A stretch of 64,000 bases of DNA from Ischnura elegans. Lineage: Eukaryota; Arthropoda; Insecta; Odonata; Coenagrionidae. Position numbers and translations under genes: made by a program. Under the pieces are notes generated by a model. That model did no database searches. It saw only the letters and a list, made by a program, of their open reading frames with translations, and was not told where the DNA came from. Each line of letters starts with the position of its first letter. Within the stretch, counting starts at the first letter, position 1. The stretch covers positions 49,891,812 to 49,955,811 of the forward strand of contig NC_060259.1 of NCBI RefSeq assembly GCF_921293095.1, in the 5' to 3' direction. Shown piece by piece: positions 5,536 to 54,437 of this stretch.

Positions 5536-6125
5536 ATAGGGTAGATTCCTTCATCAAAGAAAACAAAAGGCAATGATTGCCATTCTTTACCCACCATTAG
5601 CGTATTCATAATATACAAATTATTTGGTTTTAGAAATACCAGTTTAGACGAATGGGAATGGTCAATTTTATCCTCATTTGAAAAAGGCCAGATTGGCGCC
5701 CATGCGATGCCACTCCACGTGACGTCACAGGGACCTAGTTTCTATATGAGTAGATAGGAGGAATGTCTGAGATTACCAATGCATGCATGATGCACAGAGC
5801 TCAGGTAAACATGTCTTAATAATCACCTATTAAAACTGACTAAGGCCAGAAAGTTTTCTTCGATCGATAAGGTATAAATAATCCTTATTTAAGCCAAGCG
5901 CTACCAGCTAGCAGGGTACTCGGCTACCTGCTAGCATCCTGCGTCGTATCAGCGCTCAAGCCTTGCCCCAAGGTCACCTCACTTGCGGCAGCGGGAACCA
6001 GAACGACGTCACACGGAGTTTTCCCAGCATTCATACTTAGCCGTCGCGTTTTCGTTTGCTTGAAAATGTTCACTTTTCATTTAATCGCGAAAAATAGATA
6101 TCGTCATTTAAAAATCTAAAAGCGT
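5536..6125 (+). mobile_element. 667-bp MITE family, copy A (3' truncated)
   Basis: Starts with ATAGGGTAGATTCCT and runs parallel to the full copies at 28310, 40812 and 53771. It diverges at about 6125 and lacks the last ~75 bp and the 3' terminal repeat. It keeps the overlapping E-box/CRE CACGTGACGTCAC (5716-5728). A one-base deletion breaks the antisense ORF that two sister copies keep open. Confidence 0.9.
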
Positions 6126-6479
6126 AGGAAAGCCTTTATCAATTCACATTACTTTGTTTCAAATAACTTGAAGAAATATAATTAACAAGGATAAAATTTG
6201 CAAATACTTTAGAGACTACGAGAGGATAGAAATAAGTAAAAACCATCATCTTCATCAACGTAATAAATCAAAAATGTGCACTTTTTGAATGAGGTTCAGC
6301 AATCACAAATTAGGGCTTCTTATACATTTTTAAACACCCATCGCTAAACAGATGAAAAGATGCAACCATTGCAGCCACGTATGATGGAGAAATTCCATTC
6401 ATAACTTTCCATTACTTCATTTACACTATAAATGGAAAAACTCAGAAAAACTTTTCATTCCTGGTTTTCTTACAAACAG

Positions 6480-6485
6480 TTTATT
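6480..6485 (-). terminator. Candidate polyadenylation signal of the aquaporin gene
   Basis: AATAAA on the minus strand about 440 bases past the aquaporin stop codon. It is a common hexamer in AT-rich DNA, so this assignment is weak. A cDNA 3' end would decide it. Confidence 0.3.
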
Positions 6486-6922
6486 AACCATAAATTTACT
6501 TCAAAACAATCAACAAGGAATTCAATCTTTAACAAAATACTCCAATCTCATCTTATAGCTCCAAAGATGGCTACAAAATGAATAGAAGGGAATCACATGG
6601 TAACAGTTTTTATGCGCTAGATGTGTGTATAAGAGTACTTCCAGAAAATATCCAGTTGGTGGCAGTGAAAATTAGGAGCTTATGAAGCTAATTAAATGGT
6701 ACATTTGTGCATTTTTGCCTCAAAGGTTCCAGTTTTTCCTTCAAAATACCTAGCGTGGACCCTCAATGGGGATATAATTACACCTGAACTCACCCATCAT
6801 CAAAGATGTATCTTAAAGATATTACTTTGTAGCACTTTGAGGTTGAACAGGCAGCATAATTGGTTTCCATTGGACATTTTAGCAGAATAATCAGGCACTT
6901 TAAAAGAAACCACCCAGCAGTA

Positions 6923-7122
6923 TTACTCAGGTTTCTTCTTCTCTTCTCCGACTATCATTCTTTGGACTCTCGGGTGTTTGTATACCATCACAGAGAGGAG
7001 TGCTCCTGAGCATGCCCCAATCCAATAAACCACAAGATGCTCCACAGCGGTGTTTCCCTTGCAGCCAAACTTCAAAGACGTCGCCAGCACTGGGTTAAAG
7101 TAACCTCCAGAATAGTTGAATG
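6923..7122 (-). CDS. AQP12L: Aquaporin coding exon 5 (NPV motif, C-terminus)
   Basis: Starts after the acceptor TTCCTGCAG and reads AFNYSGGYFNPVLATSLKFGC, the canonical second half-helix of superaquaporins. The last membrane helix (about residues 237-253) and a basic tail follow. The final residues GEEKKKPE end with lysines at -3 and -4, a dilysine ER-retrieval arrangement. The stop codon ends at 6923. Confidence 0.94.
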
Positions 7123-10100
7123 CTGCAGGAAAAAAATGGATGTCACATCTATAATTCACATCATAGAGCTCATTCCTAAAAGCTAAAAGAACTCACAGAC
7201 TTCTACAACATAATACTTTATACATTCAGAATCTTCACATTACTCTATACATTGAGAAAGATAATGCCTTATTTAAGAATACCGGGACTAGCCACGGTGA
7301 TAACTTTTACGGAGTCACCCGCAATGCACAAATAGTGCGAAAAATCCACAGGAAAAATCATTCGCCTTGACCGGGATTCGAACCCGGATCCCTCGATTTC
7401 TGGCCGAGTGCTTTAGCCAGTTAAGCTACCGAGGCATCATTCTCATCTGCGGAATCGAGGGATCCGGGTTCGAATACCGATCAAGGTGAATGATTTTTCC
7501 TCTGTGGATTTTTTGCACTATAGATAATGCCATTAGCACCTATTGCAGGCTAAAGACAACAGATTTTCCTGCACAACTGAACCAATGTTGGCTATAGCTG
7601 ACAAAGGAGATAAGAAGTGACCGTCTCCCAAACCATAAACTCTGGCATGCAGCTTCTCCTCACTACCCAGCTTAATGAGGGATCAGGTTCCCATATTTGG
7701 GACATCTATTTGATCCTTAAACTCATTTTCCATGACTCCAGCAAAATAGATTTGCGGTAAAATGATACATAATATTGCCAATGTTTTTCATGAAAAAATA
7801 GTCCTCATGTGCATGAAAATATAAATCCTGGAATAAATAAATTTGATTTAAACCTTGTCCATAATCAAATCCATAATTCAATCAAAATTTTACTGGTAAA
7901 AACTGAGGTCTATCATAGAACTCAACACAACAGAATAGTACTTGTGTCCAGAGTTTTACAACTGTGGTTGTAAATTTTTTTCTTTAGAGTAACCTTCAAC
8001 TTATTTCTTCCTTTTCATGAGTAGCCACATTTAATTATTTTGCTACAAAATTAGGACTAAAATTTTGGTTGTCGAAGGAAAATATTCGTGTGGCTTATCA
8101 TTGCGCTACCAAGTGCGTCCACCGGATTGCAGACAGTGTTAGAGTTAGTATAATTACCCGCAACGACAAGAGAAGTTCCAATAAATGCATCCAAGGCTGT
8201 AGAAAAGCTTGGCTGAAGATCACCCAGAGCTCTTGAGCACACCCGACACAGGCAAGTGGCAGTTGCTTCAATCAGCGCTCCAACAAACATTGTCACCTGA
8301 GAGACCATACAATCATATAATTTCCATCCACTGTGGCATTTACATAATCACAATACTCTGGCTTCACCAAATGGAATGCTTTAATTTCACTTGTGATGAA
8401 AACCCACGGAGTGACCGCAGTATTTAAGTCTTATACATAATTACTTTATTTTGCTAAGTTAAAATTAATTTTCCAGGAACATTTTTCAGGCATGTAAAAT
8501 TCTTTATACACTCAGGATGTAAGAATAATTTCATAAGAAATGACTACATAACACAATGCTTAAATATTTCTCTCACTTAGCACAAAAATCAATTAGAATG
8601 GTTTAGGTTAAAAGAGGGGGAAAAAAACGATTTTTTTCATATGGTTACCAAAGACATCACAAATGATAAAATTCAGACAATTAGTCTAGGTTTTCAAAGC
8701 CACAGATTTAAACCTTTCTAGGTTACTCAATCATGGTTTCATGCTAGGATACTGCATCACTCCTGCTCCAACAATATTTTCACATGATATATTACTCATT
8801 TAAAACATCTCTGTTTGGGTTAGCAGCATGCTCTAAATCATCAGTTCCTTCATAATGGAGAAATGCCACCATGCTAAAACTAATACAAGTCATTTAATGC
8901 ACTTAGCATTTCATAAATGCAGAAATATTCCTGTAATTTTTATTCACCTGGAAAAAAACAAATAAAAAGGATGGTAATGGCTGAGGTGATTGAGGATGAT
9001 ATGATGTTTCCTTGCCATGTGGCCTTTCTGGAGGCCACTCTGCTTCTCCACAGAGTCAAAAACATAATATCTTCCAACATGTCAATTTTGGACTCCTAAT
9101 TTAATTAAATATGTAGTCTGCAGAGATGAAGCATTTCCTATACATATTTACCACACTGAAAACAGCACATTTAAGGCCTTTATATCACAAGAATCCTACA
9201 AACAACAACAGAGAACAAACACAAACACCCATGCCTTGGAGAAGGACAACTTAGATAGGCAGGAGTTGAACCCACGACCTTCCGTTTGATAGGTGAGGAC
9301 TTTATCCAGCCACTATCGAGGCTTTATTTCGTGGCCAGAAGCAGGACCACGCTAAGCCTGAATCACGAGATCATTTTTTCCGTTCCGTGCAAGCAATTAC
9401 TCCAGTGATTGCTCCAATGATGGTGGAAAAATGACCGACCCTTTCACACGATCATTTTCTGTAATGGCTCCAAGGACGGGAATCCCATCCCTTTTTCCAT
9501 CAATCGACACGTCCCTTTCTCAGTAACTGAAACCATTGCTGGCAGTCTTTCAGCCAATCAGAATGTATAGCCACTAACAGCTATTGCAACACCATGTTTG
9601 GCATTTAATGGAATGACAGATGAAAACAAAGAATGTGATGGAAAAAGGGATGGCAGATAAACCATGTAATTCAAGAAATTATAGGTTGAATGATAGCTTT
9701 TAAAGTCTCTGAAAAGCTATCGCTATAGCTAATACTCTCAGGGATGGAAAATGACCTTGTGATTCAGGCTTAACCTTCACAAATGTTCCAATGGGGTACA
9801 AAAAGGAAAGATAATTTTAAAAGGCTATTTGGATCATTTGAAGGTTGTTTATCTAAATAAGAACAAGAATCTGATATCAAACAAAGAACAAACAATGACT
9901 TAAATTTAGCTTATAAAAATAAATTATGACGCTAGGCAGTTACCTGAAGATCTGCAGTGCAGTCTTCCTCAGCTCTTCCAACATGTGTATCAGCCAACTC
10001 AAGTCTCCAAAGAAATTGAATGAAGCTGAAAATAATATGAATAACATGAAATAATGCAAAACAAATTTAATAATACCTAAATAACATGAAAACATGTTAA

Positions 10101-13100
10101 AAAATTTATTTCAAGCTTCTTAAACTAGTATTGTGGTGATGTGAGACCACATTTTTTTTATATTCAAAACTCAATTCCGAGGATTCAATTGGAATTATTG
10201 TTTACAGCAAAGATAACAATCCCATCCAGTTCATTATGATGACATAAGCAAGTTTCAACTTCCATAGGCATTTCCAAGGCCTGCCAGAATCTACGAGTCT
10301 CCCACAAGACTACCTGAATTGGTATTTTACTGAACTAGAAGGTAGCCAAAAGTATTTTCCTTTCCACGGCATACAATGCTTAAAAATCATATAATGTAAA
10401 ACTAATTTTACAGTATTTAAAGCTGAAATTTCTATGAATATATTTTAAAATTATTCATAGATTGGTTTATTCCCATTAATTTCCATGCAACTTAAATCGA
10501 GCAGAGAAAAAGTAGAAGACATAAATTACAAAAAGGTATTCACAATTAGACTTGAAAGATCACATAAACGAACTATGTATTTCAAAGCCTCCCAGCATCT
10601 ATGAGCCTGCCATAATAAAAAACCTGAATTGGTCACTGTCATTCATTAGAGGATGGCCCAAGGTATTTTCCCTTTGAGAGGCTTCACTGTGTGGTGGGTA
10701 AATTTTGACCATGCACACAGCCACCTGGCAATCAAATGCAGGTGGCCACAGATTGCGAATGATACATTGAACTTTTAATGAAATATGCATGGATTTTTTT
10801 GATAATTTTGATATTTTGTGTAAACTGCCACACCTTGACCTCAGCCTGGGCAAATTCATATCCGTCCCAACCCAGATATGAAAAAATACAGAAAGATGGT
10901 TAAGTACTATCATGGTTCTTTTTCCATGGATCTCTAACCTCAGCAATGACTTCACACAGGAGATGTTACACCAACCAAGGAAAGTGAAGAAGGTAGACAA
11001 AACAGAACAGCTGGGCATCAGATGATTCATGAATAAATACCTAAATATTGCTTGACAATATCCTTTTTGAAAAACTCTCTCCCTTCTAGAACTTGCTCCA
11101 TCCAGTGCAGGTGGATGGACAGTCATGGCCCTTTCATCCCAAATCACAAACAAAGGCACGGCCTTTCTACTCCTTCCTCTTTCACTCCAGGGTTTTTACC
11201 TCTCCCGATTACCTCCACTCAAGTCCCGTAATGATATCGATTCACAGACAAAATGTTATAAACCTTCGTACACGAGGAGGTCAAAAATGCATCAAAAAGT
11301 GTACGTCATAGTATGTATGATATTTTCATACCAAAAGATAAATATTTGGAAGAAAATTAAGTCTCTTTCATACGTGAAATTACATTTCCACAAAATTGAG
11401 CCTCATGCTACTTATTGTAAGAGCATCACTGCACTGAGGACAGTCACTTGATTGGCAATATTTCCACGTTTCTTGGCCGTAAATTTCCTTACATCAAAGC
11501 ATCATGCTTTTCCTAACACTCAACAAAAATGTGTGAAATTCCCACACCTTTGGCTTAGCTATAGGTGAGCTCTACATTAGTCAAGAAAAATTCACCAATT
11601 TGCACCATAACAGTAATAAAAATATTGAATTTACTGCTAAATTCCAAGGGGAGTTCATATATTGTAACTGTTTTGAGATATGAACATAAAGTGAGTAAAT
11701 TACATATATACTAGTTATAGACTGAAAAAAGTTTCAATCTGGATTTGATTTCAATGCCCTTCCCAATACATAACTAGTATGTCACTGTCTTATAACAGAA
11801 GCCATCCACTGGAAAACCAGTTAATAGGATACTTATCCAATATAATAGAACACAATAGAAAATCTAATTTGAATGCTCCACTACTTACATGAAAAACTGA
11901 GAGAATGAGCTCTATAACGTTAATTTATAGTCATCTAAATTTTGGCAGCGTCTCCCTAAACTTAACAATAACTAACTACATATGTGCTTCAACCCAAAAG
12001 TTAGTTAGAATAGGTTAAGATAGAATGTATTTCGCATATACAGGGTGGGGAATAGCTTGCTTATCCTAGGATTTGAGATGCAAACCCATTTGTTGGCAAT
12101 AAAACACAACTAAACAAGCATAGACCATATTTTCAGCTCATACAGCCACTTTTAGAGTAAATAACGCTTAAGAATCTCCACCATACTGAATCAAAGGTCA
12201 TAAGAGGGCAGGGATTGCATGGCCAAAAAAGGGGCTTGAACAATGGTTGGATAAAAGAAGATATATTTTAGCGTGGAATGTCATAAGGTATGAAAATGGT
12301 AGGGTGGCCACACCTGTAAGAGGATTACAGCAGTAAAAAGAGATTTCATGCATTCTCATGTGAGGATATTCACTGTAGGAAGACCTTTTACATACCGGAA
12401 TACAGAAATTCCTCCAACTAGTTGGGCAATCGCCTTGAGCAAAGCAGTTCTCATGTCCGTGTCTCCAGTGAGTACATCTTCCAGGTGATTGTAGGGACAT
12501 GCAGTAGCATTTCCCCAACAGTTTGACCACCATATTGTCAAGAGGAATAGAAGTACTGCATACGCAAACACACCATAGTTGTCAGCCACTGAGAGAGTGC
12601 AAAGACAAAAATTACCAATAAAACATCATCATGACAAAAGTGCAAATATATACTGCTGCGCTTGCATGTTAAATATTTGGATTTGAAAAATAGTTTTTCC
12701 CAGGAACAGGTCCTCTAGAAACAAACATCTCTTTTGCACACCACAACAATTAAATTAATAGAATAGGTCCTCCCTCAACATTTCAACGAAAGTTTAGTTT
12801 GGATTTGTGGAGAAGAGCTTACACCAGCCCTTGTCAAATAGGTATCAGTGATGTCAATTTTAACTTTCTCAATTCAGCTAAGAAAAATATAAATAAATTC
12901 TCATGGTAAATAAATTCCCCATAATCTTTAAACATCTCATTGACATTGGATGAATAAATTGGGGTTTTGCCACTTTTTTATGGTGCTGGCAGTCTTTCCA
13001 TGGCACATTGAGTCATAACTCTCTTCCACACATTGCTGATGGGAGAGTCATTATATCTGAGAAAGTAATTCACTTTATGGATTTCTATGACTTCCCTGAT

Positions 13101-16100
13101 TTGTCTTCGGTAGGTAGTAACTAGCATTTAGGAGAAATGCTTGGATGCAATTTTTGCCTTTTCAAAATCAATTTTGTACATCCTGCCAGCCACTTCTTCT
13201 CGGTGTACAGTGTAACTTCCTTCTGTTTCAAGTTCCTTTGATTTTTCCCTAATATAACAGACTTATTAACAAGTTGTACTTTTCTCTGTCTCCTAGGGTC
13301 CGCTCTAACATCGATGTTGTACCTGCAAGGTTCTATACATCCTGTCACATTTCAGTTTATACAGAATATGCTTAATGATTTCTTTTCAGAGGAATACTGA
13401 GTAGTATTTCCATGGTTCATCAGTGATTTTATCCTCTATTTTAGCAATGAACTCTTGAGTATGAATAGTTAATCACCTTGCCAAATCCAATGAAGTTATA
13501 CATATCAAATACCTGAGTAAACATTGCTTTTTGTTTTTACAGCTGATTCTGCTTCTGTTTTTAAGGTTCCAAGAATTATTCTGTGATCACTAATACTGTT
13601 GAGAATATCTGTGTTTTATCAACTTAGGATGGCTTACTAATATTTTATTTCCTCTTATAGGCTTGTTGACTACTTGAGCGAGTAAGTGACTTGAAAATTT
13701 ATTCAGTAAGATCTTGCTGATTTCCCAATTCCTTGAATTTGATCTCACAGTGTAAGAATACCAATTTACAGATGAGAGATTAAAATCTTCACCTTTACAT
13801 GAACATGCTCAAAGCAACATTTAAATTACAGAAAGAAATAATAATGACTTTGGAATCAAGTAATTTCTGAGATGCTTCTAATCCAATGTTTGAGTCTTAA
13901 AAGATAGCCACGCATTTTTAAGTTTTAGGAATATTTTATTCGGAAAGTCCAAACATACCTCACTTTGAAGGCAATGCCAATGCATATTAGAAAATTAATC
14001 AATGTCATAAGCCCAAATGAAGGATTTTATAAGAGGTCTTTCTACTTAAGAGGGGCTTAAATATTCAATAACATGGCTAGCATACTCAAAATATTTAGAT
14101 ATCCCCGTTAAATTGTTTTGTGAAATGGCAAGTGATAGGCATGACATATTGCAAAGTATGCTGATGTTGTTTTTCAGTTTTTTTTCAGTTTCTGCTAATG
14201 ACGTTTTTCAATTCAGATCAGTTTTTTAATAATAATATGGCAGATATCTCAGGATATAGAATCTCCGTTCATTATTCTTATTGATAGCATTAAAGAAACT
14301 AATGCGAGGATACTTATGCACGAAGTAAAAAAATTGGCTGAAATTCAGAACAAAAGTTGAAGTCGATCTAACTTTACTACCGCTGCACATTACAAGGCAT
14401 ATGTGTGTTCGACCACTTACTTCATCATAACGGCAAATTAATCTTTGTTTGGCGATGTTAGCATTAAAAAGCCCGATTTTTATAATTATGATATATTATC
14501 AAAACATATATTTTTTTTGATAAATACATATTAAATGCGAGTGGTGCCATTCAGAGAAAACCGTGAGATAGGTTTCCAGTTCTATCTATCCAAGCCAGGG
14601 TAAATTTGGAATGGACACATGTGTTTCCTCGCGACATGCATGCTTTTGAAGCAAATGCTGATTGACCAAGACCCATTGGGAGGAAATGCATGAACCCCAA
14701 AACGTACCGAGTCGTTCAATGAAATATTCATCCTGCACGCTTATGCAATCTTAACATACTTATAGGTACAATGGGTTGCGTACGCATTTAGGCGAATACC
14801 ATGTCTCCTTATCTATCTTACCGTACTATCTTTTTACACATATATTTGAAACACGAGACAGTTTTTCAAGTTCTATCTACAAGCAGAGAAAACTTTCTTA
14901 AAAACTACTCCTGAGGTTTTCTCAGACTTTCAACAGAAATATTGTTAAATTTAAAAAAAATGTAGAAAGGGAGCCAAAGCAGAAAGCTTGGGGCACTAGT
15001 TTTAAAAAATTGTACGAAGGCAAGTTGAACAAATAACAATGACAAAAGGAAAGGCTGGTCATTTTTTTCCCAAAACTATTTTCCCTACGATTTTTTAAAT
15101 ACTATCAAATACGAAAAGGAAAAAAATGGCATACCTTAAATAAAGCTTTCGCCGAGTTCCCCTCCAGCAAGAGAAAGGCCACCCACGTTGGAGTGGAATT
15201 AAAGCGATCATTTGGAGGCTACATTTTCGCGAATCTTGCTATCCGATAGATAATGGAATAGATAAAAGAGAAATATGCCCACCCAGAGTGGCTACTCAAA
15301 TAAATCAGAAAATTCCCTAATTCTCCAGGCTTTTCTAACTACTTACTGTTTCATCATATGTAGTGTATGGAACATGAACATCTTTACATACAGTATGATA
15401 AATATGATCATGAGCTGTTAAAGATTAACCCCAAAATAGAATAAAATGACGAAAAAAATGAACTTCATCAGCAACGGAGCATCATCTAAACTGCACAACA
15501 TTGCACATTTTCGATGAATCCTACGATGGAAGGCTAAAGATCTAGCTATAGCGATCTTAATGTCACATCTATTACCTCTATCACACCATAACGCCATACA
15601 ACCAACCATCGCTTGACCTAAGCACTTCGTCTCATTATATGAGTACCCTCGATGGCCATATTTGCGCCAATCTTGCATTACGTTGGATAATAAAATAGAT
15701 AATAAAGTAAATAGTACATGCGCCATACAGGGTGGTTTCCCAAATATCAAGCTGGAAATTCTTTGATGCTCCAGATTTTTCAAACTACTCCCAACCTATT
15801 CTACTCTTTCATCCAGCAGATGTCTAAAGACTTGGTTTTGCTTCCCGTTTGTCAACATGCCCACGGAATTTCTTTTTTGTTCATCACTCCAAAAACCTAA
15901 TCCCTAGGACCTAGTTTTATTCACCATGGGCTATTTCCAAGAGCACAAATGTCACGAGAAGTTTTGGCTCGCGCTAGTAAGCAAGCGATAAGGGGTCAAA
16001 TTGTGACTACACTCCCCTTCCTTGATTACGCTGATTCAGAAGATTCATACGCAAAAAGCAATTAGAATTAACTAACAGAAGTAAAAGGCCAGCGTGCATC

Positions 16101-28309: not shown

Positions 28310-28977
28310 ATAGGGTAGTTTCCTTCACCAAAGAAAACGAAAGGCATTGATTGCGATTCGTTACCCACCATTAGTGTATTCATAATACACAAATTATTTG
28401 GTTTTAGAAATACCGGAGTAGACGAATGGCAATGGTCAATTTTTATCCTCATTTGAAAAAGGCCAGATTGGCGCCCATGCGATGCCACTCCACGTGACGT
28501 AACAGGGACCTAGTTTCTATACGAGTAGATAGGAGTTTTACATCGTCCGAGATTACCAATGCAGGCATGAGGCACAGAGCTCAGGGAAACATGTCTTAAT
28601 AATCACTTATTAAAACTGGCTAAGATCGGAAAGTTTTCTTCATTTGATAAGGTACTAATAACCCTTATTTAAGCCAAATGCTACCAGCTACCAGGGTACT
28701 CTGCTACCTGCTAGCATCCTGCGTCGTATCAGCGCTCAGAGCCTCGCCCCAAGGTCACCTCCCTTACGGCAGCGGGAACCAGAACGACGTCACACGGAGT
28801 TTACCCGGCATTCATACTTAGCCGTCGCGTTTTCGCGCGCTTAAAAATTTTCACTTTTCATTTAATCGCGAAAAATATTTCATATTTCATTTAAAAATCT
28901 AAAAGCGTGAAATACGTACTCCAGGAGTAATAATCTTTCGATTTAGGCAATAAAAAAGTAATAGTAAACCACCCTAT
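28310..28977 (+). mobile_element. 667-bp MITE family, copy B (full length, 668 bp)
   Basis: Terminal inverted repeats ATAGGGTAGTTTCCT (left) and ATAGGGTGGTTTACT (right, reverse complement). The right end has the conserved CCAGGAGTAATAATCTTTCG block near 28921. TA lies just inside both flanks. The E-box/CRE is mutated at one base (CACGTGACGTAAC, 28491-28503). No transposase is encoded, so it must rely on an autonomous relative. Confidence 0.93.
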
Positions 28978-35747: not shown

Positions 35748-35952
35748 TTTACTCGTAATGATGAATATTAGAACACACATGACAGAAGAATTGTCTGCCC
35801 TGACGACCATAATGTTAACTTCAGACTCACCGACAACCAAATGTTGACTCGAAGAATAAAAACGATGAGCCAAAAATGTCGAGTAGTGACTTTTCTGAGC
35901 GCCAAACACAAATGAATTACAATGTAATAAAAAGCTTCGTAGTGGTTCACAG
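35748..35952. repeat. Dispersed repeat, copy 1 of 2
   Basis: About 205 bp (from CTCGTAATGATGAATATTAG to AAAAGCTTCGTAGTGGTTCA) recur at 47017-47222 with about 5-7 percent differences by eye and in the same orientation. Flanks differ. No terminal inverted repeats are visible. Confidence 0.9.
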
Positions 35953-36659
35953 GCAAGTGGGCTCTTTCCAAGAAAGCATTTCACGCAATAAAAACACGAA
36001 TGAATATAACTTTTTTGTGCATCAAAAAATTTTCTAGATGCCTTATCGTCGGCAGAACAACATTCGCTCCTACGGTAATACCGTAGCAACAGGCTGTTTT
36101 TCGCCATCAAGCTTTTTGATATAACTTCGTAGTAACTATGTGCTCAGGAAGAGAAAAAAAACGGACTAGCAATGTTTCAAAACAAACAGAACAACTTCTC
36201 TGAACGTCACACAAACAGAAATTATACAGGAAAGGCGATATTCAACCAATATATACATCACTCATTCAACGATTCAACACTACGATTAGTTTGGATTGGT
36301 GAGGGTAGAGCTCCCCACCCTCAAACGAGTAAATTTGCATACACTCCGGGGAAGGACACCATATCCCTGGATCACCTCATACTTCGAGAACTTCTTTTGA
36401 GGGTGTTCGAAAGATTCGCCAAGGGTTTGACCCCAGGAGCATTGATCAGCATACCAACCCTCATCCCGCTGGTCTGCCACACTCCCGACGTTCCCAGATA
36501 TACGACATGATTTACGACAAAAAGACGTGAGCAATCGTGCACAGCGTAATTGCTGTCAACCCAACAACATGAAACGCAGTAGTGGCTCATAAAAACGAAG
36601 GAGTCAAAGCAATCGAGTTTCCTAAAAAAATACAAGAGTGAAGCAGAAATGTCGTGTTT

Positions 36660-38239: not shown

Positions 38240-38440
38240 AAACAAAGAAAAAAGAACCACGCGAGACTCATTCACATGGCCGAGGAGTATCGGAGAAATG
38301 GCAACCCGCTCGGCATGAGTTCGTGACGTCATCAACTTATTTGGGAAAGCGTTAAGCCCATCGATTTTTTATCGGGAATGGCTAGAGAAGTAGGGAATGG
38401 ATCGAAAAATGGAAATATATTTAAGTACGGTCAAAGATCA
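38240..38440 (+). repeat. Unclassified repeat family, copy 4
   Basis: Shared words are AACCACGCGAG, CGTGACGTCATCAACTTAT, GGGAAAGCGTTAAGCCC and GGATCGAAAAATGGAAAT. It may begin further upstream (about 38110), where it loosely matches the lead of copy 2. Confidence 0.6.
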
Positions 38441-40705: not shown

Positions 40706-40811
40706 ATATGTATAATCAATACCAACGGCGGTGTATTAACCAACACTGAGATAACACAATTCCGTTTTGACCATCACTATCAAATTCTCATTCATTCATA
40801 TTAAATAGACA

Positions 40812-41477
40812 ATAGGGTGGTTTCCTATTATTTTTTATTGCCTAAATCGAAAGATTATTACTCCTGGAGTACGTACTTCACGATTTTAGATTTTTAAATG
40901 ACGATACCTATTTTCGCGATTAAATGAAAAGTGAAAGATTTCAAGCGCGCGAAAACGCGACGCTTAAGTATGAATGCCGGGAAATATCTCCGTACGTCGC
41001 ATTTCTGGTTCCCCCTCCCGCCTTGTGAGGTGACCTTGATCGAGGCTCTGAGCGCTGATAGGACGCAGGATGCTAGCGGGTAGCTGAGTACCTTGCTGGC
41101 TGGTAGCGTTTGGCTTAAAAAAGGTTTATTAATACCTTATCAAACGAAGAAAACTTTCCGACCTTAGCCAGTTTTAATAGGTGATTATTAAGACATGTTT
41201 CCCTAAGCTCTGTGCCTCATGCCTGCATTGGTTATCTCGGACGATGTATAACTCCTATCCTCTCGTGTAGAAACTAGGTCCCTGTGACGTCACGTGGAGT
41301 GGAATCGCATGGGCGCCAATCTGGCCTTTTTCAAACGAGGATAAAATTTGACCCTTGCCATTCGTCTAAACCGGTATTTCAAAAACCAAATAATTTGTGT
41401 ATTATGAATACACTAATGGTGGGTAACAAATCGCAATCAATGCCTTTCGTTTTCTTTGATGAAGGAAACTACCCTAT
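40812..41477 (-). mobile_element. 667-bp MITE family, copy C (full length, 666 bp)
   Basis: Inverted relative to the other copies. Ends are ATAGGGTGGTTTCCT on the left and AGGAAACTACCCTAT on the right. It contains the intact palindromic GTGACGTCACGTG at 41284-41296. An ORF of about 71 codons (41284-41499) runs from inside it across the right end. It sits 106 bp from the solo LTR at 40516. Confidence 0.93.
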
Positions 41478-42242
41478 TACGTTATTATTCACATATTAGC
41501 ATTCTAAATTCGCGTTAAGTGTGCATTTTAAGAACTGCCTGTAGTAAAACTAAGAGATAACTAATGATTTCCTGAATATTTATGAATTATAAAGCACATT
41601 AAAATTGAAAGAACAAACACTGCGAATCGTTATTAAGATCACAAGCATTCGCAAATACTTTCAATCAAATATTTCTGCAAATTGAACCAACTCAAAATAT
41701 TCGGGGAATATTAACTATGTTTGCCAATTTGGACCACCTCAGTCAGTCGTTGTGTATCCATTTTGTTCTTTTCTCTGTCAAGTTTTGCACAATAGAAATT
41801 ACCATTAGTGCGTTTCATATGGCTTCTCTGTCTTCATTTTCTGGCTGTAGTTTAAGTAGTTAATGGATCAGAAAAAAGATGACTTTTTACAGCACGAGAG
41901 ACAACTTAGGTGATGAAGCTTCAAATTACAAAATAATCTGAACTAATTCGTGCTCTACTACTATCGTTACAGACGTCTCTTCCATTAACTGCAACATTAG
42001 CACCACGAATCAAACTCCTACTAACCTCTCCTTAGCACTGCGGTATAAATGCCTTTTTTTGGAATTTTTTATTTCCTACAACATTAATTAAATCTACTTT
42101 TTTCCTTCCCTGCATGTATTCAAGGCAGGATTCATGTCTTCAAAGGGTCTATTTGCCACTAACATTTTTCATCTTTTATCCAAACTTCCCTTCCACTATT
42201 CCTCTTGACTCTCGATAAAAGAATAAATAGCCAAAGCGTACA
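41478..42242. other. Gene-free stretch
   Basis: AT-rich, no recognisable gene or element. Confidence 0.4.
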
Positions 42243-43820: not shown

Positions 43821-45650
43821 TACGCGTGGTGCGATTTGGGAGAGACCGCCATTTTCTATGAAATCATTTCCATTACCTAAACACAGGATCATACCACGCT
43901 GGTAATAGCGCTAAATAAAACAAAATTAACTTCAGAAATATGATATGTAGTTAAAGCTATGTGAATATAACCTACCTGTTTTCAATAACTTCTTTGTATT
44001 GTGTGCTGCCTAATCACCAGGAAAACCGTTCCCTCGCAATAAGTATCCACGCTCTACAGCTCCCTATATGTGTGTGTGTATGAGCGCACAGTAAAGTTTT
44101 TCGGCCTTGCGGGGTTACGCTACGCCTGAGGCCAGATCCACCACTCGTGAAAATTTTTACCTTGCATTCCCTGAAGGGTCTGGATTTTGAGAGGAGTTAA
44201 CGGTAAGGGTGGGCGACAAATCTGATGTCGCGCGTAATTTTAGAAATGCATCGCAACTTCTTGGGCCGCATATAAAATTGCAGAACTAACGGTTGTTACC
44301 TTCAATGTATCGAGACGATGCAGATATAAACATGGAAGAACCTTAATACCTTTTTGTCGACAGCAATAGTAGAAATTCACGAATTTAAGTTGCAGGAGGG
44401 CACATTCCAAAGGACACAACGAAACAATTTGTGCATACACAAACGCACCCCACCTCTTGCAGCAAAAAAAAAGCCTGCACGCTATCAAAATGTATTTCTA
44501 GCAATATTACTCTTATACGGCACTTGCCTTATCACACAAGCAGAAATTTAATAAAATTCATCGTAATCCGTACAATATTCTTTTTCGCCAAAACCAAAAA
44601 TTCAGCCGCCGATGAATCCACAAAAAAAAAGAAAATAAATACCAATCGCCCTGAGGACCTATAATCCAACGGTCAATAAATTGTCTACATTTATGTAGCA
44701 TTTTCTGAGAGTATAGTTATCTACCATAATCACATCACATCTTATAAATCGTCTTATAATTGCATTCTCACAACAGGTACATCAGAATAAAATTATTCTA
44801 CATAATTAACAAATAGAAATATATCCATCTGACTCGAAATATTCGTAGAAATAGACCTCACATCCTTGTTTTGATTGTGGTCACTGCGTATTTTCACTGC
44901 CGAGTTATTTCTAACACTTTCGCTGCTTCTTTACCGTTCATCTTCCAGCGAAAGTTGCAAATACACACATTTCTAAATATAAAATCACTGAAAACAACAT
45001 TCTTTCGTAAATTATTACAAGTAACTATGCAATCAACGTCAATGGACGCAAAAAGTTAACAACAATCGTTATCGTAAGCTAACTCGCTATCCCGACGCAC
45101 ATTGCATTGGTTTATTACCTCCTTAAATATAGTTTTTCACCACGTTAACAATGTTAAATTCCAACGCATACTCTGCTGAACTTCATCACTTCGATATCCT
45201 TGTATATTTTATCGAACATGAAGATTAATTAAAGTCCATCCCAGAGGACCAATTACAGCGAAGTCAATAAAATAAAAACCTTTTTCTTGAAAAATACATA
45301 CACTTACACTTCTTACATGTTCATCGGTGAAACCATATTTAAGCCAATTGATCTGGAAAATAAAAACATCCACTTTTCATTTTTAGGTAGATAAAAAGAA
45401 AGAAAGCGCGCTTACACGGTGATAACGGCAGCGGTCAGTGAAAATAAACCTTTAAAACAAGAGAGGCTTCCGATAGAACCTAGTCCACCACTTTAAAGCC
45501 TTTCGAGTATTTTAATGGTGGGCCGGGTCCATTTCTTTTCATACCGTAAACCCTAAGATTCAATCAAGCCAGGAAAAGCCACTAGTCACCTAAAAAGCTG
45601 TGTAGTGATTACCCTCTAAGGCATCACCGGGACTTACATCATTAGGCCTT
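43821..45650. other. Gene-free stretch
   Basis: Short frames only (the largest 82 codons antisense at 44488-44240). No recognisable elements. Confidence 0.4.
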
Positions 45651-45654
45651 AGGG

Positions 45655-45890
45655 GATCGGGTTAGTGCGGAAGCTAACGTTGGCTTCCCACCCCGTGGGC
45701 TGGGGTTCAAGTCCGGGCGGTAGCGGAAATTTTTCCAGTCGCTCGATCCCAGATCGAGTGCTTTGTTGAGGGCACTTCTAGTTCATCACATCGTCGGATG
45801 GGACGTGGTTCCCTTGGCGTCTTTCGTTCAAAACAAGCTAATGCCAGAGCCGGGTTTCACTACGCTATTCTTCCGTTACACCCCCCGACG
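45655..45890 (+). mobile_element. tRNA-derived SINE
   Basis: A tRNA-related head with an A-box-like GGTTAGTGCGGAAGC and a B box GGGGTTCAAGTCC. A body follows with GAGTGCTTTGTTGAGGGCAC, CATCGTCGGATGGGACGT and GGCGTCTTTCGTTC, ending near GCCAGAGCCGGGTTTC. This body order is familiar from a widespread arthropod SINE type with Pol III control. Confidence 0.75.
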
Positions 45891-46019
45891 GTGCAAATAA
45901 CATGCGGTCGCCTCCTCCAAATACATTCCAATATCGAGGATGGAGCGAGAGTTAAAATCAAGCATCGCGATGACAATTCCAATTATTACCGCTAAAACTG
46001 TCACGACAAACTATCGTGA

Positions 46020-46735
46020 CATATCACCAGTTAAAAATGGTCTCTCAAAAGAAATCACGATAATTCACCCGATAAAATATCACAAGTCTTTGTATATCAG
46101 CAGGCCACCCGGCGTTGCTGGGGAAGGATTGAACCCAGAGAATTTGGAGAAACTTGGAATTCATGGTCACATGGATGAATTTTTAGCAAAGGAACAAAAC
46201 AGGTATGATGATGGTATACATATGTAGCAACAAACAATCGAAAAAACGACTTCCGTATACCGCGCACAGGATCAGCTTATACCCCGCTTCACAGCATTGA
46301 TCATTAGGTGTGTCCGTACGTGCGTAGGCCAAAAACGTCGAGTGAACGCATACCTCAACAAAAAGGTTTGCACCTAGAGGATTAATAGTTAAGTGTAGAA
46401 TCCTTTGAGTTATGCTTTTCCTTTGAGCGTGTCAGGAGGCGTGCCTACCCGGCAGGATGACCAACCCCAGAAGTTGTGTGACGTGACGTAACTAACGGTA
46501 ATGAGAAAGCGACCTAAAGGACTAGTCGGACGCAACCGAAAGTAGTAAGGTAAAGAACCGAAAGTAGAATGATAGATACCGTGATATAAAATTTTTTGGG
46601 ATGATAAATCATGACATTTCACCGAGAGGCGATGATACACCGTTTATCACGCTGGTCCATCACGATATTTACATCGGGCGTGTCATGGTGATTTTTATTA
46701 TCGGGCGTTATATCACGATTTTTATCGTACAACAA
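46020..46735. repeat. Imperfect inverted repeats with ATCACGAT words
   Basis: The left side (46050-46085: AATCACGATAATTCACCCGATAA) and right side (46650-46735: ATCACGATATTTACATCGGGC and ATCACGATTTTTATCG) are inverted relatives, with further copies nearby. This suggests the ends of a worn DNA transposon. Exact termini are not defined. Confidence 0.4.
46101..46202 (+). other. Exon-like segment between inverted repeats
   Basis: An open segment (frame 45940-46227) reads SRPPGVAGEGLNPENLEKLG, then HGHMDEFLAKEQNR. It has an acceptor-like TATATCAG at its start and a good donor, AACAG|GTATGA, at its end. The amino-acid composition is more protein-like than the surroundings. I do not recognise the protein. 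It could be an exon of an unassigned plus-strand gene, or transposon-derived. Confidence 0.3.
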
Positions 46736-47016
46736 CGCATCAATAATGGCCAAAACTCAAAATAGGATGGCCGATATATTAATTTCGTAATATTTCTATG
46801 AGTCGCCAAGGTCTACTTACCCACTAATACGAACTGGTGTTTCTTGGGGGTCAAGAGGCTAATTCAGCGGATTAGAAGAAAATTCTAAGGATAAAATTCA
46901 CCTTTCGCCGCCCACCTTAGTTACTCCTATGCTTCCTCGTTATTAGAGTACAGAGTGATAGACAGGGGAAAGTAGTATTCACCCAATGGTCAGTGTCATC
47001 GCAGGGTACACACACC

Positions 47017-47222
47017 CTTCTCGTAATGATGAATATTAGAACACACATGATAGATGAATCGTCTGCCCTGAAGACCATAATGTTAACTTCAGACTCACCA
47101 ACAACCAAAAGTTGACTCAAAGAATAAAAACGATGAGCCAAAAATGTCGAGTAGTGACTTTTCTGAGCACCAAACACAAATGTATTACAATGAAATAAAA
47201 AGCTTCATAGTGGTTCACAAGC
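47017..47222. repeat. Dispersed repeat, copy 2 of 2
   Basis: Match to 35748-35952. Both copies start at CTCGTAATGATG and end shortly after TAGTGGTTCACA. This suggests a short interspersed element or a duplicated fragment of a larger one. Confidence 0.9.
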
Positions 47223-49490
47223 ACCAGCCAACCTGGTAAGATCACCCTGGCACCGGGCTTAGGCCCCCCCCCAAAATGCTCTTGTCTACAGTGAAGCTTA
47301 TATAAAAGGTGTAATAAAAAATGACTGTTTACTTGAACTTGAAGTTTTTTTTGCTGTCATAAATTTATCTGTTTTCATTAGTTGCTTCATTTGCAATGTA
47401 CTTAGGGTAAAAAGAATAATTAAAAAATAACTAAACAAAGTTGTCAGAAGATAAAAGAGAACCTGATGTTTTTATAAGGGTTATTTTAGTTTTTTTAAGA
47501 TTTAAGTGCAGTTTCAAGGAACAAACTCAATAAAAAGTATATGACATTATATAATGGCCAACACATGTACTTACTCAAAAACAGCCAAATTGTTCGGCAT
47601 GATTTTTTATAAAACCATGATTAATAAAAATTGCGAAAAAACTAATTTCAAACCCAAAGGATAAAAAACGCATGACTGAAATTTGACTGACTGGTTTGAT
47701 TCATAATTTTCTAAGGCACATATAATGAAATTTCAGAAGAAAAATTGCAATTACATACTTCACTAATCAATTCGAGAGTTGTAAGTTCTTTTGAATTTAT
47801 TTTAATTTTGAGGAATAGGAAAAATGGTAACATAAAAATATTTTACCCTAAACCATGTTGTTTTAATGTAAAAAATTTATTTCACATCATAAATTCATGA
47901 TCTAAAACTTAGATTTATCAATAATTTTGAAATAATGCCTAATATGTGTTGCATCCCAACCATTCACTCTCATTTCCAGGCTATGGTCCAGTCAAAGAAA
48001 GAAATCAGGGGGAGCAATAATAATGTAGTCGCACATTTTTCCACAGTGTTAAGGCATGAAAAACTCACCAACATGAGAGAGTGGTATCACGTGGTGTAAT
48101 ATCAATGATATTTTTAACCCTTGTATATGACCCTCAGCAGTAAGACGGTGAAATGAACGACTTTCAGTTAACTCTTTTGAGTGATACCTTGGGGGATATT
48201 TCCCAGGAAAGTATGATGCACACTTTCGTGAAAAACTACCTCAATACATATCTGAGGGAGATAGTTGCATGGTAGGACCCACAGAAATTGACCACTTTCT
48301 CTGTATCTTACAAAGCTATTTATGCCATCACTTCGCCTCTTGGCGATTAGAAGATACATCACCATATCTTAAATCCATTCACTCTATTAGCTTCTAAACA
48401 CAGTTAAATGGGAAAAGAGATGCATAAATAAAGAGTTGAGCCCAAAGTAATAAATTATATGCTTCTGAGTATGCATAATATGTTTTTAGGAAAAGGCTTC
48501 GGTGGAATTTGACAACTTTCCACCCTTATAAGTATTACCCAAGGTGCAAATTATGTATTACTGTTGCTTCAAAATTCGACTGGGTGTGGGAAGCAGGAAT
48601 GGACTGGCAATCTTATACTTTATACTTTTGGTTAGCTATGATATGGCCTTAAGCTGAGATACCTTAGTTTAAGATTTGCTGTAAGAGGTAAGTTTGACAT
48701 GAACAAAAGGAATAAACTTCAAATCACTATAGCATCTGAAGTTCATTCCTTTAATAGCTATCCTTCACTGTTTTAAGTGTTTCAGTGTCATTATTCATGG
48801 TACAAAATGGTTTTGATTTTGCATGGCTCATTAACTGTTATAAATCCCCTTAAATTCATTGACTCTAATAAACTAATTTCAGTACCCTAAGAATTAAGTT
48901 TTTAAATAGAATTCTTTTAATGTGAACTGCTATGCTGTGATGTAATGAGCTAGGAATTTATTTGGGTTACTTCATTTCTTAGGGCTAACTGCAGCTAACG
49001 CATGCAAGCTATAAGAAGATTTTATAACAATTGCAGCATGACACTGATTTCTTTGCTAACTTGAGATAGCAGTCGCTAATTAAAACAGGAATAAATGTCC
49101 TAGTTAAGTATTTTCAATAATTTAAAATGTTATATCTTCAATAAATTAAATTTTCATTAAAATACTAGCATATTTAACAGTTCCTTCACCTTATTTTCAC
49201 TGTTCAGCTTAGATTCATCTGGTACATCTAGGTTGCATTATTGGACGGTTTTGGGACCAGTGCAAATACCATTTTAAAAAGCCCTCTTATTTGGCTGTGT
49301 TATGGAACAATAACAGATCCTCAAAAATTTCAGGGGGTAAGGTGGGTAGAATGAGGAAGTCCCGATTTTCAACATTGAGTGCCACTGCAATGGGCCAAAT
49401 CTAAGGCCATGTCTCTAATCTTTATGGTCTCTAATCTCTCCAACATTGGAGCTACAAGGTCATGATTTAGTTAAATATTTTGTATTTTCA
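47223..49490. other. Gene-free AT-rich stretch
   Basis: No convincing gene. A splice-acceptor-like pyrimidine tract near 47960-47979 is followed by a 39-codon open frame, judged too weak to annotate. Confidence 0.4.
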
Positions 49491-49494
49491 GTAG

Positions 49495-49740
49495 TTTAGA
49501 GGGTAGAGGAATTGGTTCCTGAATGAAGGTTTCCGGGTTCAAATCCAATTTGAAGGCTTCAGACACCACCTAAGCAAAATCTCAAAGTGTGAAAGGAAAG
49601 GAACTGTCTCCATGCCCTGAAAGTGTATTCCAGTGGTAGTAGTAATATCTATACAGAAAATGACATACAAGTCTAGGATAAAAAAAAATAAGTATTGGAA
49701 CTGCCACTGCCCTGGGTTCACTCAAAATTACATAAATTTA
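49495..49740 (+). mobile_element. tRNA-derived SINE remnant
   Basis: A head-like GAGGGTAGAGGAATTGGTTCC and a B box GGGTTCAAATCC about 40 bases later. A non-coding body of about 190 bp ends near GCCCTGGGTTCACTC. Confidence 0.45.
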
Positions 49741-50006
49741 CTTATTCCCTTCATATAAAATATCACAATTTCCTAAATAAATGTCCAAGTGGGAAAAAAC
49801 AGCATTCCAAGAGTATAAACCCTTTCCTGCCAGCGCCTACAGGAGGTAAATGTTTTCCATGCCACAAGTAGCATAACAATATTTTAACTTCTCTCTATGG
49901 AGCTTTTATTTTGGAAATCAGTTGCCCTGGTATTCTTGTCCCTACAATTCAAGACCCAACTCAACGGAACACCCTGCCATTATCCCCGCCACTGGACTAG
50001 GCCCTC

Positions 50007-50260
50007 CAGTGGCATAGCCAGGAATTTTGTTCGGGAGGGGTCCAAAACCAGGAGGGAATATTTTTGAAAAAAAAAGGTACCAAGTAGAGAATTTTTAACT
50101 AATTTTAACACTTTTCATAATCGAAAAAAACTTCATTTATTGAAGAAATATTTTGTAAACTCATGATTTTTCAATATTTTTTTCCTTAATCAAAGGAAAA
50201 TAATTGTGTTTCTATATTTCAGGGGGACCCTGGACCCTGAGACCCTCTATGCCAATCCCT
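50007..50260. mobile_element. Short hAT-like element, copy 3 (diverged)
   Basis: Starts CAGTGGCATAGCCAGGAAT and ends near a complementary CCTCTATGCC. It is related to the copies at 53388 and 55170 through the GGAGGG, GAATTTTTAACTAATTTT and GGGGGACCC words. No target duplication is clear. Confidence 0.55.
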
Positions 50261-51400
50261 CTAATCCTAAATTAGCACAGTCCACAGTCCACGTATTGAG
50301 TAACTTCTGTTTTTTACACGAAATACTTTAGATTTCCAGTAATTTGCAGTTCTCTAAGAATAACTAACATCATTTAAGCATTGTAGAATTTTAAACTGAT
50401 TTCTAGCAATGATAATAACAAAGTTAGTGAACACAAGGTACTAAGACTCTAACTCCAGATACCCATTAATAGTAACACTTAAATTTTGTTTACAAATCGC
50501 TTATGCACATAAAAAACAATGAATTCATTTAAAAATATTAAAAAAATGGAGTATGCAACAAAATTTTTCTTTGCAAAAACCATTGACAATATAACCACTT
50601 CACAATGGATTTCTACAGTGAGGCAGATCATAAATGAGTAGGAGGGTTGGAGCCAATTGCCGATGAGAGCTAAGGTCTCACTAAGCTGGGTCACAGGCAG
50701 GGCCTGAATACCTCTAACCACTGCTACCTCAGCAGTCACTTCCCTTCCCCTGCCCCAGCTCTGGTGGACGTCCGTTCACTTGCATTGAAAAATTCACGTC
50801 AGCTGCGGCCAATGTTAGATCTTTCGCAAATGAAAATGCTCTTCGGCTAGAGCAAACTTTCAGCATGAATGAGTTAAGGGCATCACCTAAGAAAAATGAT
50901 GCTTAAACCATGACAGATATGACAAACAATATGGTCATACCACCATGAACACTTAAACAGAAAACCTCAATCTCCTCCTTTAAATATGAAGTAAAAATAG
51001 CAACCATCAATTGGCCACCAGCAGAAAAAGGATCATTCCCTCAAATCCAAAATTGTAATTCATTGAAAGGATTTAGTAGATGAAAGTGAAAGATGAGTGA
51101 AAACAAAAAAAAATTTTCTCATTCAGCCATTCTTTCCTAAATTTAAAATATAAAAACTCGGAAGTTATTCCCCACCCACTTCCCATGCGTTGGTGACATC
51201 ATTCGAGTTCTATTCATAAACTCACTTAGTAGGAAGTTGTGAGATCATCAACGAGAAACCCAGCATCAGCATTAGCCTGATATGTATTCAAGAAAGGTGC
51301 CAAGGAGACCATAGCTTAACGTCCCACTCAACATGGAGATGGAGGACTGTACACAAAGTGCCTGCCATAAAGCACTAAAATAGGGTTCTGGCAAACTCTG
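50261..51400. other. Gene-free stretch
   Basis: An 86-codon antisense frame (50739-50479) is hydrophobic at its end but resembles no family. Nothing else seen. Confidence 0.4.
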
Positions 51401-51404
51401 AAAG

Positions 51405-51485
51405 ACCTCCACCATTGCCAGGATATGAACTCTGTCCCACAGGATGGGAAACCGCTCTAGCCACCACACTAACCCATTGCCCTGG
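51405..51485 (-). mobile_element. tRNA-derived SINE head
   Basis: On the minus strand GGGTTAGTGTGGTGGCTAGA (A-box region) is followed by a B-box-like GAGTTCATATCC. The order and spacing fit a SINE head. The anticodon arm is not tRNA-like. Confidence 0.5.
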
Positions 51486-52047
51486 ATTCCTGCATATCTA
51501 TGACAGGACTACATATCTCAATATGCTTAATCCTATAATTACAGCTGACACCTAAGACAAACCCTTCTTAATGAATCAGCTGTAATCATTTGGTATGACA
51601 GCAGAACGATTAACATGAAAAGTGAACCTAGAAAGAGACCAGCACATCCCCCAATCCTCATAGGTTAACTTCCACCGTAAAACATAAGGTTTCTTTATCT
51701 AAGGCCTTGGTGGATTATTAAAACCAAACAAAAAAGAGATGTATTATTAAAATTACCATTTGCTTGGACGTTCATGGTCAGTCTCAGGTAATGGAACCGC
51801 ATACATTTCTGCTTTCTTCCCTGGATTGAACTTTCATTGTCAACACTACAGGGAACAATTTACACCATCACTATTTCCATGGAGTATCCATGATCTCGAG
51901 CTAAAACTAAGAATGCTATTATAAGTTTCACAGAATCCCAGGATGCAGATCATGGGTGTAAAAATGTTCATTTCGACAAATACCATGTACGTTGATAGGA
52001 GACAGAGCTTTAATAAATAGTTGGGCCGACATTCGAAGTTTCAAGAA

Positions 52048-52236
52048 CTACTGTCGTTTTTTGAACGAATAATCCAGATAATAGGAAATGGCCACGACCA
52101 CACCGACATAAAATGCACAATGATAACACTGGTTACTTGATAACTGTTCCACGGAGTCATGGTTAACTTCCAAAAGACAATACGTCATAGCCTCCCACAA
52201 AATGATAATACAAAATATATATAGCCCTCGGTGCAA
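52048..52236 (-). other. Small open frame ending in a membrane segment
   Basis: The frame (first ATG at 52188) gives about 46 residues: MTYCLLEVNHD..., a CYHC motif, a hydrophobic segment (AFYVGVVVAISYYL) and the basic end SFKKRQ. An ATTAAA poly(A)-like hexamer follows within about 40 bases of the stop. It could be the last exon or sole coding exon of a small membrane protein. It lies just downstream of the promoter-like stretch at 52.3-52.9 kb. No family recognised. Confidence 0.25.
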
Positions 52237-52274
52237 TAATCAATTATTAGGTGTCTAATAATGTCCATTCTCAC

Positions 52275-52317
52275 CAGATATACGCCAGCTGCCATCGATT
52301 TCTCCAGTATTCTTCAA
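52275..52317 (-). other. Candidate short first coding exon
   Basis: An acceptor (TGTGTTGCAG) precedes 52317, and an ATG at 52295 in fair context (AAATCGATGG) gives MAAGVYL. A donor, GTGAGA, follows directly. The phase is 0. The rest of the gene cannot be assigned. Confidence 0.2.
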
Positions 52318-52399
52318 CTGCAACACAGAGAACTTACAGAATTTGAGTACAGACAAATAGGTACACCGTAAACGATAGTCGACTAACAGCGTCATTTTT

Positions 52400-52900
52400 T
52401 TCATTTCTTCAACCCATAACCGACAAAAATTTCAAGCTCGGATTGCAAATACAAATTATAAATAAAGCTTTAATTACAAATAGTTGAAAATCAACGATAC
52501 CAGAGGCAATTACCAGCCGCCGCAAGTGAGAAAATGTAGCATTGCTTTTAACCTTGAATGGTGGTTAAATTAAAATTAAATAGTTACGATCATAGAAACT
52601 GTATTCTTTACGCCCATATGCAATTAATAAAGTTAGCGGAAAATTTCTCGCGCGTAACCACTTAAATCAAAACCCCACGTGATGAAACAACTGAACATCG
52701 TGATCCAGCGAAACAAAACATTGACCGCCAAATTCAATTGCTAGATAACTGCTTGCATACACTTCGTATAAGTTACTGCTGGGTAAATAGCGCATGCGCT
52801 CATATATTTGAAATTCTTCAGCTATTACAGAAAAAATAAAACTATAACCACTAATAAATGGGTGCGGTAATAACTTCAGGTTCAGTTACAAGTTAGGTTG
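52400..52900. promoter_or_regulatory. Promoter-like stretch with NRF-1/ewg-type palindrome
   Basis: A perfect GCGCATGCGC palindrome at 52790-52799 matches the NRF-1 (insect ewg) core, which is typical of housekeeping promoters. GC-richer patches lie around it. On the minus side, a start-codon/donor pair lies at 52275-52317. Confidence 0.35.
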
Positions 52901-53387
52901 AAGTTATATCTTTATGTTAATTGCAAATCTCAATACTTTCATCAAGTTGTAAAGTGTTATCACGAGGTATATCATTATTTTGAGCACATGTTAATAGAGC
53001 ACTTGATCTAAAGGACTCACAGGACATTTTTTGTCCGGAGGTATTGGATGGGACCAAAAGCTGCCAACCTTCTGGCACCTTGAGCTAAGGGCAGGCTAAC
53101 TCTGACATTTGGTGCTCTCCAACCTTCCTTTCCAATAAAGTCCTCCTAGAACATATGTCCAAAGCTCTCGGCCGCCTCCTTCAAACACAGTGACCAATTA
53201 ACAGTGAAATAATCAGGTAGGAAGTTAATGGAACATTCAGAACAAGGCAAAAAGTAACTGCTTGATTTTCTACTCTAACAGACACCAAATGCAACATATA
53301 TGCAGCAGAGCTAGCTTCACCCTCAGCCTTATTTTTTTTTTATTTACCAGAGACCTATCCATTAACTCATGTGACAACTATTCTGGG

Positions 53388-53673
53388 CAGGGGCGCAGTC
53401 AGGAATCAAGGCTAGGGAGGGTTTTAGGCGCAACTAATACTGGGGGTCTGGAATACCCACCAGGGGAAGTAGGAGATGCAGGGGCTCTCCCCCGGAAATT
53501 TTTGAGGTAAATAGTTAAAAATGGTGAGTTTTATGGCTTTCTGAGGGATATTTTATTAATCTTTACACTACTTTTTAAGTAATATTAATCCAATTAAGTA
53601 AAATGGATTAATTAAACTTAAAAATTTCTCTGGACTCTGGGGGTTTATCCCCGAAAACCTTGCTGCGCCACTG
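53388..53673. mobile_element. Short hAT-like element, copy 1
   Basis: Starts CAGGGGCGCAGTCAGG and ends TGCTGCGCCACTG, short inverted ends of the hAT form CAGNG. It is flanked by ATTCTGGG and ATTCAGGA, an 8-bp target duplication with two changes. 286 bp, non-coding. Confidence 0.75.
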
Positions 53674-53770
53674 ATTCAGGATGCTGGTGCACCACTCTTG
53701 GAATGCAACCCTCCTGTTTGATCCTCTTACCACACCATAATCATATCTGCCCTTGAAAAAATTTACACCA

Positions 53771-54437
53771 ATAGGGTAGTTTCCTTCATCAAAGAAAACG
53801 AAAGGCATTGATTGCGATTCGTTACCTACCATTAGTGTATTCATAATACACAAATTATTTGGTTTTTGAAATACCGGTTTAGACGAATGGCAAGGGTCAA
53901 ATTTTATCCTCATTTGAAAAAGGCCAGATTGGCGCCCATGCGATTCCACTCCACGTGACGTCACAGGGACCTAGTTTCTACACGAGAGGATAGGAGTTAT
54001 ACATCGTCTGAGGTTACCAATGCATGCATGAGGCACAGAGCTCAGGGAAACATGTCTTAATAATCACCTATTAAAACTGGCTAAGTTCGGAAAGTTTTCT
54101 TCATTTGATAAGGTATTAATAAACCTTTTTTAAGCCAAGCACTACCATCCAGCAAGGTACTCAGCTATCCGCTAGCATCCTGCGACGTATCAGCGCTAAG
54201 CCTCGCCTCAAGGTCACCTCACCGGGCGGGAGGGGGAACCAGAAATACGACGTACGGAGATATTTCCCGGCATTCATACTTAAGCGTCGCGTTTTCGCGC
54301 ACTTGAAAATTTTCACTTTTCATTTAATCGCGAAAAATAGATGTTGTCATTAAAAAATCTAAAAGTGTGAAATACGTACTCCAGGAGTAATAATCTTTCG
54401 ATTAAAGCAATAAAAAAATAATAGGAAACCACCCTAT
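53771..54437 (+). mobile_element. 667-bp MITE family, copy D (full length, 667 bp)
   Basis: Ends are ATAGGGTAGTTTCCTTC on the left and GGAAACCACCCTAT on the right. The CACGTGACGTCAC composite site is intact (53952-53964). The antisense strand keeps an ORF (from 53964 downwards) closely matching the one in copy C. Interior base differences from copy C are few. Confidence 0.93.

Follow-up and report, generated by a model that had tools for sequence, protein, structure and literature searches.

The window, by which we mean the whole 64-kb stretch of DNA analysed here, contains a family of one interspersed element with four members. BLAST and a profile built from the four copies agree on this, and both bear out a preliminary description of this DNA that had placed copies at 5536, 28310, 40812 and 53771. 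The same description gave the complete length as 666-668 bp, and the complete copies do measure 668, 666 and 667 bp. The extents of copies 2 to 4 come from inspection of their ends together with the profile, and that of copy 1 from the alignment and from the profile, of which it matches positions 1-600.

5536..6128, + strand: copy 1, 593 bp, right end missing
28310..28977, + strand: copy 2, complete, 668 bp
40812..41477, - strand: copy 3, complete, 666 bp
53771..54437, + strand: copy 4, complete, 667 bp

With 5536-6203, the region of copy 1, as the query, BLAST returns the three other copies at 90.2, 87.6 and 87.2% identity. The family match of copy 1 breaks off after 6128 and its right terminus is absent, so three of the four copies are complete. 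The profile finds no further convincing copy in the 64 kb, its next match (E=0.023) being an internal reverse match within copy 2. The flanks are unrelated, in that the flank of one copy has no match to the flank of another.

Copy 1 has a gene as its neighbour, lying outside the element.

6926..7192, - strand: open frame with the last exon of an aquaporin-11-like gene

The best solved-structure match of this frame is an aquaporin-11 fusion (E=1.7e-4), and its Pfam MIP match (E=0.025) is below the cut-off. It had been claimed that one copy sits about 0.8 kb past the 3' end of the aquaporin gene, and this is correct: from the stop of the frame it is 795 bp to the end of copy 1 and 1196 bp to the composite site within that copy, both lying past the stop. 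A second aquaporin exon is weakly suggested in 8060-8347 on the minus strand, where a human aquaporin-1 query gives E=0.85 and Pfam gives nothing. Between the two possible exons, in what is presumed to be an intron, is a tRNA-Ser(AGA)-like unit accompanied by part of a second one in inverted orientation (7322-7521). No gene is linked to copies 2, 3 or 4.

The rest of the window has several features of its own. The unit at 7322-7521 is related to tRNA-Ser(GGA)-like units at 56315-56589, where two such sequences with shared tails stand head to head (56315-56449 and 56455-56589). These arms are 135 nt each, 99% complementary and separated by 5 nt, which makes a near-perfect palindrome of two tRNA-derived units that appear to be SINE-like. 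Several zinc fingers of the C2H2 type (Pfam zf-H2C2_2, E=1.5e-20) are encoded in an open frame that reaches the window end on the minus strand (63599-63997); together with the aquaporin-11 match they suggest an animal-like genome. There is also a 150-bp tandem duplication of 97% identity (62264-62413 and 62414-62563), and a further interspersed repeat pair of 204 nt and 94% identity (35752-35955 and 47020-47223).

Inside the element is a composite E-box/CRE-like site, which reads CACGTGACGTCA where intact.

5716..5727, + strand: composite CACGTGACGTCA of copy 1, intact
28491..28502, + strand: composite site of copy 2, E-box intact, CRE half TGACGTAA
41285..41296, - strand: composite site of copy 3, intact
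53952..53963, + strand: composite site of copy 4, intact

CACGTG is bound by bHLH factors and TGACGTCA by CREB/ATF factors. The preliminary description had the two overlapping at the same place in every copy, and they do: the E-box is intact in 4 of 4 copies, while TGACGTCA is intact in all but copy 2, which has TGACGTAA instead, and the first base of CACGTGACGTCA is element position 181 for copy 1 and 182 for copy 4. The length given there, 13 bp, has to be corrected to 12. In the 64 kb there are 3 intact 12-mers (2 on the plus strand, 1 on the minus) against 0.0008 expected on the plus strand. The three are one inherited sequence, however, so the figure restates the kinship of the copies and no more. 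A motif present in the source element passes to every copy, and its recurrence is therefore no independent evidence and counts once. The component motifs are found elsewhere as well. CACGTG occurs 11 times in the window against 5.5 expected, 4 of them in the elements and 7 outside, and TGACGTCA 5 times against 0.53 expected, 3 in the elements and 2 outside.

The differences between copies fit a decaying family. The three complete copies diverge by 5-9%; the lowest pairwise difference is between copies 3 and 4 (34 of 664 aligned positions, 5.1%) and the highest between copies 1 and 3 (68 of 591, 11.5%). The commonest pattern of shared variants, seen in 22 columns, sets copies 1 and 2 against copies 3 and 4, while 5 two-letter columns group the copies in other ways and 29, 17, 10 and 10 columns carry changes private to copies 1, 2, 3 and 4. 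These patterns suggest that the copies stem from two or more source variants and then decayed separately. In the four-copy alignment 28 of 271 CpG bases are changed, against 104 of 2116 others, so CpG changes about twice as often, and an excess of this kind is expected of decaying copies.

The ends of the element are sharp. Each complete copy is bounded by imperfect terminal inverted repeats of 15 bp, as in copy 4:

53771..53785, + strand: left inverted repeat of copy 4, ATAGGGTAGTTTCCT
54423..54437, - strand: right inverted repeat of copy 4, ATAGGGTGGTTTCCT (read on the - strand)

Left and right repeats are identical at 14 of 15 positions in copies 3 and 4 and at 13 of 15 in copy 2, and position 8 distinguishes them (A on the left, G on the right). 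Of the 7 ends present, 5 agree fully with the common start reported for the repeats, ATAGGGTRGTTTCCT; the left end of copy 1 and the right end of copy 2 each depart from it at one base. Symmetry beyond the repeats is slight, 14 of 20 over the first 20 terminal bases. A repeat search within copy 4 (seed 8) returns one inverted pair, which is the composite palindrome itself, and a single direct repeat of 17 nt at 82%. The terminal repeats are absent from its output because they contain no 8-base exact seed. Folded as single-strand DNA, copy 4 has its two ends paired together, with a z-score of -3.1 (20 shuffles).

We scanned the three complete copies for target duplications of 2-12 bp at end offsets from -4 to +8. 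At symmetric offsets the only duplication present in all three is 2 bp, AT or TA. One asymmetric offset (left 8, right 3) also gives TA in all three, and four other 2-bp matches occur in two of three. No duplication of 3-12 bp was found in at least two of the three copies at these offsets. Both AT and TA fall inside palindromic ends, which alone would yield them, so they are compatible with a duplication and are no proof of one. The base before the AT is A at all 4 left ends, and the base after it is T at 2 of 3 right ends (C in copy 2). The tetranucleotide CAGA flanks both 15-bp repeats in copy 2 only, the corresponding flanks being mismatched in copy 3 (CGTA/TGTC) and copy 4 (ACCA/TCTT). Flank searches found no empty site within the 64-kb window. 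The flanks recur convincingly nowhere else in it, with one exception: a repeat pair of 76% identity (53388-53643 and 55170-55414) adjoins copy 4, but it is partial and stops short of the insertion point. Shorter repeats lie to the right of copy 4, and shorter inverted matches near the same pair.

The element does not appear to encode anything. Pfam gives nothing above its cut-off for eight frames that lie within the copies or cross them, the two sub-threshold matches having E=0.16 and E=0.12. We reject the idea that the copies are a coding relic: the plus-strand frames of copies 1, 3 and 4 (82, 80 and 76 aa) have no Pfam match above the cut-off, and the first part of the frame in copy 4 fails to align with the frames of copies 1 and 3. 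No transposase was among the matches listed when 20 frames from the window were compared with Pfam, these frames being a sample from a window with at least 139 stop-to-stop frames of at least 70 aa. A tRNA-derived SINE or other known RNA is likewise rejected: the window has 3 matches to tRNAs and 3 to Rfam, all of them outside the four copies. A 25-mer with the composite site has 0 matches among viral contigs, the 32-mer that is the longest invariant run has 0 among prokaryotic genome contigs, and a 120-aa frame across copy 4 has no relative among viral contigs; this is as expected, since those collections are viral and prokaryotic. Terminal-repeat 14-mers in both versions and both orientations have no match in a library of open-access papers, and neither does the composite 12-mer in one orientation. 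Terminal-repeat 12-mers match 11 papers there, and the 9 of these that were listed concern other matters, judging by title and the start of the abstract.

We believe these copies are a non-autonomous, MITE-like family of inverted-repeat DNA transposons that carries the composite site passively. We put the probability of this reading at somewhat under nine in ten, a figure that does not cover the choice of superfamily. The preliminary description had proposed a MITE, and that part of it stands: the element is short and repeated, with terminal inverted repeats, sharp ends, different flanks and no coding homology found. The regulatory part is unsupported: in these four copies the 12 site columns show no more conservation than the element does overall. 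In the scenario we favour, a source element of about 667 bp with imperfect 15-bp terminal inverted repeats and no recognisable gene would have been moved to new places by cut-and-paste, presumably by a transposase supplied in trans. Its targets would have been AT-rich, each insertion duplicating 2 bp (AT or TA), and the copies would have decayed afterwards. The composite 12-mer would already have been in the source element and would simply have been carried along. The family is like Tourist-like and Stowaway-like MITEs in being short, repeated, bounded by inverted repeats and without a recognisable gene. It is unlike MITEs in general in combining 667 bp with 15-bp repeats, with little further terminal symmetry and no 3-bp duplication seen in as many as two copies.

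Which superfamily supplied the transposase is a separate argument. Our first guess is an ISL2EU-like relative of PIF/Harbinger, which we offer as a lead, with Tc1/mariner second and a live rival. The element does differ from PIF/Harbinger (Tourist) itself, since no 3-bp (TWA) duplication occurs in at least two of the three complete copies at offsets from -4 to +8. ISL2EU, one member of the PHIS group (PIF/Harbinger, ISL2EU, Spy), is described in an excerpt of PMC4482050 as making an AT duplication that is preceded by a conserved A and followed by a conserved T, the target being A|AT|T, and as having repeats of 6-259 bp that usually start GG. The possible AT duplication here, with its A and T neighbours, resembles this, and the 15-bp repeats fall within the range reported in that excerpt (PMC4482050). 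Differences from it are apparent too: with AT as the duplication the repeat here starts AGGG and not the usual GG, and the copies are far shorter than autonomous ISL2EU (about 4840 bp; PMC4482050, same excerpt). An autonomous ISL2EU partner would carry a DDE/THAP transposase and a YqaJ protein, and neither is among the Pfam matches listed for the 20 frames sampled from the window. Since ISL2EU repeats only usually start GG, the AGGG start weakens this assignment and does not exclude it; it does make the match to ISL2EU a partial one. The other possibility is that the element is of Tc1/mariner type, in which case TA would be the duplication and the repeat would start GGGTRGTTTCCT. The TA at the symmetric ends of all three complete copies speaks for it, and yet the A outside TA at every left end and the T outside it at two of the three right ends would then demand a target preference. 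Repeats starting GGG are also atypical of Tc1/mariner, and on balance we think this assignment unlikely, while taking it seriously as the second choice.

The MITE-like reading treats the composite site as cargo, so the question is whether the site evolves any more slowly than the DNA around it. Over the four copies, 108 of 599 columns or indel events in the whole element are variable against 1 of 12 in the site (P=0.33). Of the 588 windows of 12 columns, 249 are as invariant as the site or more so (249 of 594 if gap columns are counted singly). Special conservation of the 12-mer was not found at the power that four related copies allow. Wider windows centred on the site are quieter. There is 1 variable column in 24 against 4.3 expected (P=0.053), 2 in 40 against 7.2 (P=0.017), 6 in 68 against 12.3 (P=0.027) and 12 in 100 against 18.0 (P=0.070), where none of the P values is corrected and the windows are not independent. 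The quietest 68-column stretch anywhere in the element has 2 variable columns and includes the site (scan P=0.008, the window length having been chosen with the data in view), and the quietest 100 columns have 7 (scan P=0.034). Shorter scans, over 12, 24 and 40 columns, reach no significance (P=1.0, 0.59 and 0.22). This gives a weak hint of a quiet region around the site, as opposed to a protected 12-mer, in four copies that share descent.

If that quiet block is real, it could serve the element itself, as a binding place for transposase or a host factor or as an internal promoter, and not host genes. The 68- and 100-column scans and the 40 columns centred on the site argue for this, as does a second GACGTCAC, which in copy 1 follows the first at a distance of 284 bp (5721 and 6005) and which copy 2 shares. 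The same stretch is GACGTACG in copies 3 and 4, however, the shorter scans are not significant, and there are only four related copies to go on. Transposase sites are also usually terminal or subterminal. We regard this explanation as improbable.

Use of the site by the host is possible, and as already said it is unsupported. The proposal is that a working bHLH/bZIP composite site is being spread by the element and that some copies enhance their neighbours, for example the aquaporin-11-like gene. Its proponents could point to the E-box intact in all four copies and the CRE in three, to a neighbourhood less variable than average, and to the four CpG bases of the site, which are unchanged in 4 of 4 copies although CpG changes about twice as often as other bases. 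Unlike hAT elements, to which hobo with its 8-bp duplications belongs, this family has no 8-bp duplication in at least two of the three complete copies, and it is known here from sequence alone. There is a precedent among hobo relatives for factor sites in a small transposon, the hobo-related MITEs of Drosophila carrying developmental factor sites according to an excerpt of PMC5913719, and the present element resembles them in being a small transposon with candidate transcription-factor sites. Against the proposal, the 12 columns are ordinary by both measures given above, the motif was picked after looking, the site in copy 1 is downstream of the gene, and two TGACGTCA and seven CACGTG also occur outside the elements. 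We think it very improbable that the element is a working enhancer of this kind. Its fullest form, in which the internal E-box/CRE block of a DNA transposon family is constrained and bHLH/bZIP-responsive elements have been spread genome-wide, some of them used by neighbouring genes, seems to us even harder to credit.

The passive, MITE-like reading is the one we prefer. What it means at present is annotation: these four copies belong to a small DNA transposon family. If the site should prove constrained or active, the family would be one more transposon that distributes control sites, a principle that is already known.
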